Assembly: GCA_947627665.1 (NCBI GenBank)
Contig: CANQWX010000008.1
Span: 1 to 64,000 of the forward strand
Direction: 5' to 3'
Length of the DNA stretch: 64,000 nt
From: an uncultured Clostridia bacterium
Lineage (GTDB): Bacteria > Bacillota > Clostridia > Christensenellales > Borkfalkiaceae
Shown here: piece after piece, positions 45,896-46,070 of the stretch
Numbering within the stretch: the stretch's first letter is position 1
Layout: every line of letters begins with the position of its first letter
Made by a program: the position numbers and the translations under genes
The notes under the pieces: model-generated
Databases searched by the model: none
What the model saw: only the letters and a program-made list of their open reading frames with translations
What the model was told of the DNA's origin: nothing

Positions 45896-45924
45896 TGGCA
45901 AATTATTTTCCGCCGTGGTAGAAT
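45896..45924 (+). promoter_or_regulatory. Sigma-A-like promoter for candidate ncRNA
   Basis: TGGCAA (45896-45901), 17-bp spacer, TAGAAT (45919-45924). Confidence 0.6.
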
Positions 45925-45930
45925 GAATTT

Positions 45931-46070
45931 GCGGCACAACCGAATACTGATAACGAAAAGATACCTCGGCATCGACGTATCCTTATTTCCTTTCGTTATC
46001 AGGGTTTTGTGTCGCAACAATTCGGGGATACTCGAAGCGGGCGCCTCGGATCGGGGCGTCCTTATTTTTT
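45931..46070 (+). ncRNA. Candidate structured small RNA: long 5' hairpin plus rho-independent terminator
   Basis: GCGGCAC...GTGTCGC (45931/46015), CTGATAACGAAA/TTTCGTTATCAG (45947-45958/45991-46002), GATAC/GTATC inner stem, terminator GGGCGCC...GGCGTCC + CTTATTTTTT (46039-46070). Confidence 0.6.

Follow-up and report, generated by a model that had tools for sequence, protein, structure and literature searches.

The 64,000-nucleotide stretch analysed here (the window) carries, between metG and a gene for a BspA-type LRR_5 lipoprotein, a compact transcription unit comprising a promoter, a long hairpin made up of three helices (P1, P2 and P3), a further strand (D5) and an intrinsic terminator (Table 1). 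An earlier note, made from the sequence alone, had read most of these parts, and its reading holds: the promoter boxes with their 17-nt spacer and the terminator with its U-rich tail are in place and agree with promoter and terminator scans, respectively, P1 is present with its AACC/GGTT extension and TT bulge, P2 comprises 12 perfect pairs, and the inner GATAC/GTATC stem is as described. The MFE of positions 45896-46080 is -66.6 kcal/mol, compared with -48.2 +/- 4.0 kcal/mol for 200 dinucleotide shuffles (z = -4.6), none of which folds as stably. The unit is indeed divergent from metG; what the note missed is that it lies upstream of, and points at, the lipoprotein gene, and that it belongs to a multi-copy family.

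Table 1. Features of the leader and its surroundings in the window
Feature	Position	Strand	Remarks
tRNA gene	2675-2748		Sole Rfam match within the window
metG	43758-45827	-	Divergent from the leader
Repeat pieces in the metG frame	44081-44150		Translated in frame (SSEAAAGHAPAVISSEAEKSQ)
Promoter	45896-45924	+	TGGCAA (45896-45901)-N17-TAGAAT (45919-45924); sequence and scan; distance to P1 fixed in the family
P1 5' arm	45930-45939	+	TGCGGCACAA; coincides with predicted transcription start
P1-P2 joint	45944-45946	+	AUA; A/U-rich and conserved (AATA in a 160-copy 5' logo)
P2 5' arm	45947-45958	+	CTGATAACGAAA; stem of variable sequence; own-versus-swapped partner test
P3 5' strand	45960-45964	+	GATAC; sequence resembles the D5 strand
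P3 loop	45965-45976	+	CTCGGCATCGAC
P3 3' strand	45977-45984	+	GTATCCTT; GTATC at 45977-45981; partner is GATAC (P3) or GGGGATAC (D5)
P3-P2 joint	45985-45990	+	ATTTCC; pyrimidine-rich in aligned copies
P2 3' arm	45991-46002	+	TTTCGTTATCAG; same swap test as P2 5' arm
P1 3' arm	46007-46016	+	TTGTGTCGCA; compensatory changes
D5 switching strand (putative)	46018-46031	+	CAATTCGGGGATAC; two alternative pairings, both covarying
D5, antiterminator 5' strand	46020-46027	+	ATTCGGGG
D5, part pairing with P3 3' strand	46026-46031	+	GGATAC
Terminator hairpin	46039-46061	+	GGGCGCCTCG-GAT-CGGGGCGTCC; pairs kept 97.5%, compensatory changes
Antiterminator 3' strand	46044-46051	+	CCTCGGAT; part of terminator 5' arm and loop
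U-tract	46062-46070	+	TTATTTTTT; end of terminated leader
Dispersed repeat, palindromic	46135-46262	+	Between leader and lipoprotein gene; 57 matches in the genome
BspA-type LRR_5 lipoprotein gene	46315-47247	+	MKHKFLVVLMAIAATLCMAFGLSACG...; Pfam LRR_5, E = 2.3e-37

Similar BspA-type LRR_5 lipoprotein genes were found 3' of other copies of the leader, and the lipoprotein gene of the window is the probable regulated gene of the window copy. Because approximately 244 nt, dispersed repeat included, intervene between the two, the regulatory effect of the window copy on this gene is uncertain, and the copy may exert weak regulation or none. Close relatives adjoining metG likewise have extra sequence between leader and gene. 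Many genomes of the genus have a leader copy beside metG, from which it follows that the metG-adjacent position is old. Fragments of repeats like the dispersed one also occur within metG itself, in the linker that precedes its C-terminal tRNA-binding domain.

With the DNA of the window element as query, blastn gave three matches in its own genome and 1-9 matches in each of 19 of the 61 genomes searched, all within a single genus. A covariance model (R1) built from an alignment of 29 copies recovered copies from 85/101 genomes at genus level, 100/201 at family level and 30/200 at order level; a broader model (R2), built from 81 aligned matches, found eight copies in the source genome at E up to 0.001 and copies in 49/200 genomes of the order and, across class Clostridia, in 71/291 genomes and 46/180 genera. 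R2 finds no copy in a further 249 genomes sampled elsewhere in the phylum, a result that doubles as a specificity control for the model. Copy number reaches about 15 per genome, whereas some near-complete genus genomes (e.g. G107, G121 and G072) gave no copy with R1. Among named genomes a 25-base conserved pattern was found at 50 loci, all in uncultured Clostridia with isolate names beginning 'Lapin', apparently from rabbit gut. The weak matches (30-46 bits) that the models give on the other strand arise from the near-palindromic fold; they were left out of the analyses, with the exception of one antisense row (L026) that is present in alignment A5.

Exact-pattern scans of viral contigs and a search of plasmids gave no match. 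Three scaffolds labelled 'Bacteriophage sp.' (a label that is unverified) carry the element by blastn. A phage origin was considered and rejected: of the two scaffolds whose genes were listed, one (L293) resembles, by inspection, a bacterial chromosome with YicC-like and peptidase genes and the other (L294, MT837627.1) an integrase-bearing island, such that neither shows a phage role. On L294 the leader precedes a gene for a zinc-ribbon protein, which suggests that leader and gene are able to sit together on mobile islands. Some leaders occur as tandem pairs 45-150 nt apart, many of them 45-60 nt, with a promoter and a terminator on each copy (loci include L132, L133, L141, L146, L149, L225, L240 and L205); in the first five of these the second copy is often of another P3/D5 subtype. 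In 38 of 79 genus copies (e.g. L002, L007 and L013), not including the window copy, GCCCGC stands right behind the U-tract and is complementary to GCGGGC of the terminator 5' arm.

The copies share a common plan, i.e. promoter, P1, AATA joint, P2 of variable sequence, inner P3, pyrimidine-rich 3' joint, D5 and terminator. The family sequence of P1 is TGCGACACAA/TTGTGTCGCA, and on its 3' side come ARCAAY, D5 and the intrinsic terminator, with a ribosome-binding site and an ATG usually next in line. The loop of P3 differs by clade, being GGCAT in the order to which the window belongs, GGTAAAA in most class-wide members and GCCAA in some; with such variation, a ligand pocket that is strictly invariant cannot be made out. 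The class-wide form of D5 is GGAGC..TGCATTTTT, which resembles the P3 5' strand and so could displace it. Of the 8 nt behind the terminator, a median of 6-7 are U. The family promoter is TTG...TGnTATAAT, with its -35 TTG and -10 TATAAT at a constant distance from P1 in 160 non-redundant members, and this fixed distance places the predicted start of transcription at the base of P1. Both boxes are in place in 65-84% of copies, depending on the group; the promoter lies outside every search model, and thus its presence provides independent support for the matches, distant ones included.

Conservation of the paired segments in relatives had been proposed in the earlier note as a check, along with a homologue search and covariation analysis; the segments are kept through compensatory change, covariation is strong for P1, P2 and the terminator, and both alternative pairings covary as well. 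In the 81 aligned matches, standard pairs occupy 96.2% of pair cells, double changes occur at 25 of 27 pairs, and 350 double-change cells were observed as against 96 in shuffles; sliding the partners by 1-3 columns makes all covariation measures collapse. P1 has double compensatory changes at all 10 of its pairs, with 98.6% of cells paired in the 81 diverse copies. Since this alignment had been fitted to the model, a separate, alignment-independent test was run, in which the complementarity of every segment to its true partner was compared with that to partners taken from other copies (160 copies, <85% similar; 5000 permutations). Own partners scored far better than swapped ones for P2 (24.6 vs 12.1, z = 60), for D5 with the terminator 5' arm and loop (18.0 vs 11.6, z = 26) and for D5 with the P3 3' strand (17.4 vs 12.9, z = 16.8), no permutation in 5000 reaching the observed value in any of the three. 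Repetition of the tests on 44 and on 20 more divergent copies again gave 0/5000 each, and the signal for D5 with the P3 3' strand persists at <62% similarity (n = 20). Pairings read in individual copies include AATTAAGGGA/TCCCTTAATT, AATTCGGGATAC/GTGTTCCGAATT and AATATGGG/CCCATGTT for the antiterminator, and GTATCC/GGGATAC, GTACTTC/GAAGTAC and CTTCTC/GAGAAG for P3 with D5. The two alternative pairings are statistically non-independent, because the P3 3' strand and the terminator arm are both complementary to D5.

A start codon with a ribosome-binding site lies within 300 nt 3' of the unit in 208 of 256 copies, and within 50 nt in 163, with a median of 29.5 nt between the unit's end and the ATG. 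Three features expected of an attenuator were found: a gene that is 3' and co-directional, an intrinsic terminator ahead of that gene, and a conserved antiterminator pairing that is mutually exclusive with this terminator. A simple text pattern finds a lipobox-like motif in 87/208 downstream genes, and paired CxxC motifs occur in 47/208. Pfam analysis of 146 encoded proteins identified BspA-type LRR_5 (29) and zinc ribbons (about 10), together with Listeria-Bacteroides repeats, collagen repeats, copper-amine-oxidase N domains and S-layer domains; small proteins of cysteine-rich and of acidic type are encoded behind copies as well. Judged by these motifs and domains, the regulated genes would mostly be those for surface lipoproteins, BspA-type repeat proteins and zinc-ribbon proteins. 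One small cysteine-rich protein (MIIDITGIELIPGNGGKDCPGNG..ECCCDECNYMCCC) recurs right behind class-level copies (L192, L193, L206, L250, L252, L262 and L268), with no PHROG match in the two members tested; PHROG likewise gave no match for ten small proteins encoded behind class-level copies.

Comparative sequence analysis thus shows the helices, both alternative pairings, the promoter locked in place, the terminator and the position ahead of a gene. Taken together, the results make it probable that the units constitute a family of cis-acting 5' leaders, so far undescribed and spread across the class, which act as regulated transcription attenuators resembling orphan riboswitches. In the mechanism we propose, RNA polymerase would initiate at the base of P1, and the P1-P2-P3 hairpin would form before the switching strand D5 emerges. 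Pairing of D5 with the P3 3' strand would tie D5 up, leaving the terminator to form and the gene off; pairing of D5 with the terminator 5' arm would create an antiterminator and leave the gene on. The segments of D5 used in the two pairings overlap, such that the pairings are mutually exclusive, and the terminator is blocked while D5 holds its 5' arm. Which partner D5 takes would then depend on a signal that keeps the P3 end of the hairpin shut or opens it. We infer that regulation does occur, that P3 held closed would correspond to the on state, and that the signal, a small molecule or an RNA-binding protein, would be read by P1-P2-P3.

Folding of the growing transcript of the window leader is consistent with this order of events, with P1-P2-P3 followed by the antiterminator at about 122-126 nt and the terminator last. 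When leaders were cut just short of the terminator 3' arm, the antiterminator formed in 155/160; the complete terminator is stabler than the antiterminator in 113/160, and read-through in these would therefore need stabilisation or kinetic trapping of the antiterminator. Steric constraints may burden the pairing of D5 with P3, which has to span the long P1-P2 helix. A more specific proposal, which we regard as somewhat short of evenly balanced, is that the leaders form a riboswitch class that is found across Clostridia, with genomes carrying as many as about 15 copies, and that senses a cell-wide signal and controls surface and zinc-ribbon proteins via the exchange among P3, D5 and the terminator arm.

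A serious, if distinctly tentative, variant of the attenuator reading has an RNA-binding protein, rather than a metabolite, bind P1-P2-P3 or its joints and so select the partner of D5. P1 is more conserved in sequence than base pairing would require, and conservation extends to the AATA and ARCAA joints but not to the loops, as recognition of helix and joint would predict; on the other hand, no consistently accompanying partner gene was found, and the leaders differ from the known targets considered. Those targets include the RAT sequences recognised by BglG/LicT, in which a short hairpin overlaps the terminator, and the targets of ANTAR proteins, which consist of two hexaloop hairpins (A1, G4). 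The leaders are like both in that an RNA hairpin overlapping a terminator would set read-through, but inspection shows neither pattern, and a cognate regulator was not found; in the listed copies the P3 loops are those given above, and inspection revealed no paired second hexaloop hairpin.

The earlier note had called the unit a candidate undescribed small RNA. That it is an undescribed structured RNA equipped with a promoter and a terminator is supported by the strong covariation and by the lack of an Rfam match in any locus scanned; a small RNA, though, is not what the evidence fits best, because the units stand directly 5' of genes and carry a covarying antiterminator strand for which a free small RNA has no need. 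A trans-acting family, in which the terminated transcript of ~140 nt is the product and its position before genes incidental, would account for the promoter and terminator, the very stable fold and the many paralogous copies, but we consider it unlikely, given that 163 of 208 genes begin within 50 nt of the unit, that the antiterminator strand covaries with the terminator, and that the downstream genes share a common theme of surface and zinc-ribbon proteins. The terminated ~140-nt RNA of an attenuator may nevertheless have a role in trans. Attenuation through ribosome stalling on a leader peptide would employ an identical logic of terminator and antiterminator; it is barely credible here, since the transcript is predicted to begin at P1, which leaves no room for a ribosome-binding site, and no frame is conserved, unit lengths from 136 to 208 nt being spread evenly across the three frames. 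It is also highly improbable that the units are mobile or repeat elements (MITEs or recombination sites) whose palindromes mimic RNA structure. Several copies occur per genome, the source genome is rich in dispersed repeats, and one copy (L294) lies on the integrase-bearing scaffold, but copies diverge with compensatory changes while keeping their direction and gene spacing, they carry a promoter and a terminator, and the position beside metG is kept in many genomes; a transposon, in particular, was ruled out by the compensatory divergence and the kept gene spacing.

A close parallel among known systems is with c-di-GMP-I riboswitches (RF01051), which in Clostridia occur as multi-copy 5' leaders, also in tandem pairs, before surface and lipoprotein genes and which employ terminator/antiterminator logic. 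The present family shares all of these properties, and its copy number, tandem pairs and surface-protein targets would resemble a regulon of this type. It differs in that it has no Rfam match and has other helices and conserved segments, and a GGDEF domain is missing from most of its carriers in the genus: such a domain scored over the cut-off in only 12 of 61 genus genomes, and the near-complete genomes G009, G002 and G030, with 15, 15 and 10 copies, respectively, have none. With so many carriers having no detectable GGDEF domain, c-di-GMP is unlikely to be the signal, and we regard a structurally new c-di-GMP class as very doubtful. T-box leaders resemble the family in being long and in setting an intrinsic terminator against a competing antiterminator, but no T-box covariance model matched in the Rfam scans and the targets are not amino-acid genes. 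Guanidine-IV (mepA) and HMP-PP (thiS) are described as compact switches in which terminator strands take part in the alternative fold (PMC8632094, PMC6478431); the family is like them in this respect and differs in using a separate P1-P2-P3 domain, the 3' strand of which competes for D5, and in having no Rfam match.

The leader family itself has no match to an Rfam model. None of the 4227 families of Rfam 15 reached its gathering score in the window leader, in keeping with the earlier note, which did not recognise a known riboswitch or sRNA class in the unit, and at E up to 10 nothing came near a gathering score, the best matches being at chance level. Scans of 40 further loci of diverse subtypes returned two neighbouring tRNAs only, and L279 gave no match at E up to 1; a known Rfam family was ruled out by these scans of the window leader and other loci. 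Leaders governed by a terminator and antiterminator are, as a type of mechanism, well known. The element is undescribed in the main-text passages compared from two large surveys of bacterial noncoding RNA and from a human-microbiome survey (PMC8632094, PMC11109978, PMC8040213); an earlier listing under an opaque number, in their supplements or in a 224-candidate survey, may exist.

If the proposed reading is correct, the leaders would represent a large orphan class of gene-control RNA in gut Clostridia that has so far been absent from the library of RNA families, and would provide a common handle on the control of surface proteins in these mostly uncultured bacteria. They would also raise the testable question of which signal a single RNA reads ahead of genes for surface repeat proteins, lipoproteins and zinc-ribbon proteins. 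Identification of the ligand, or of a protein partner, is made practical by the clean structure seen on comparison together with the wide copy number.
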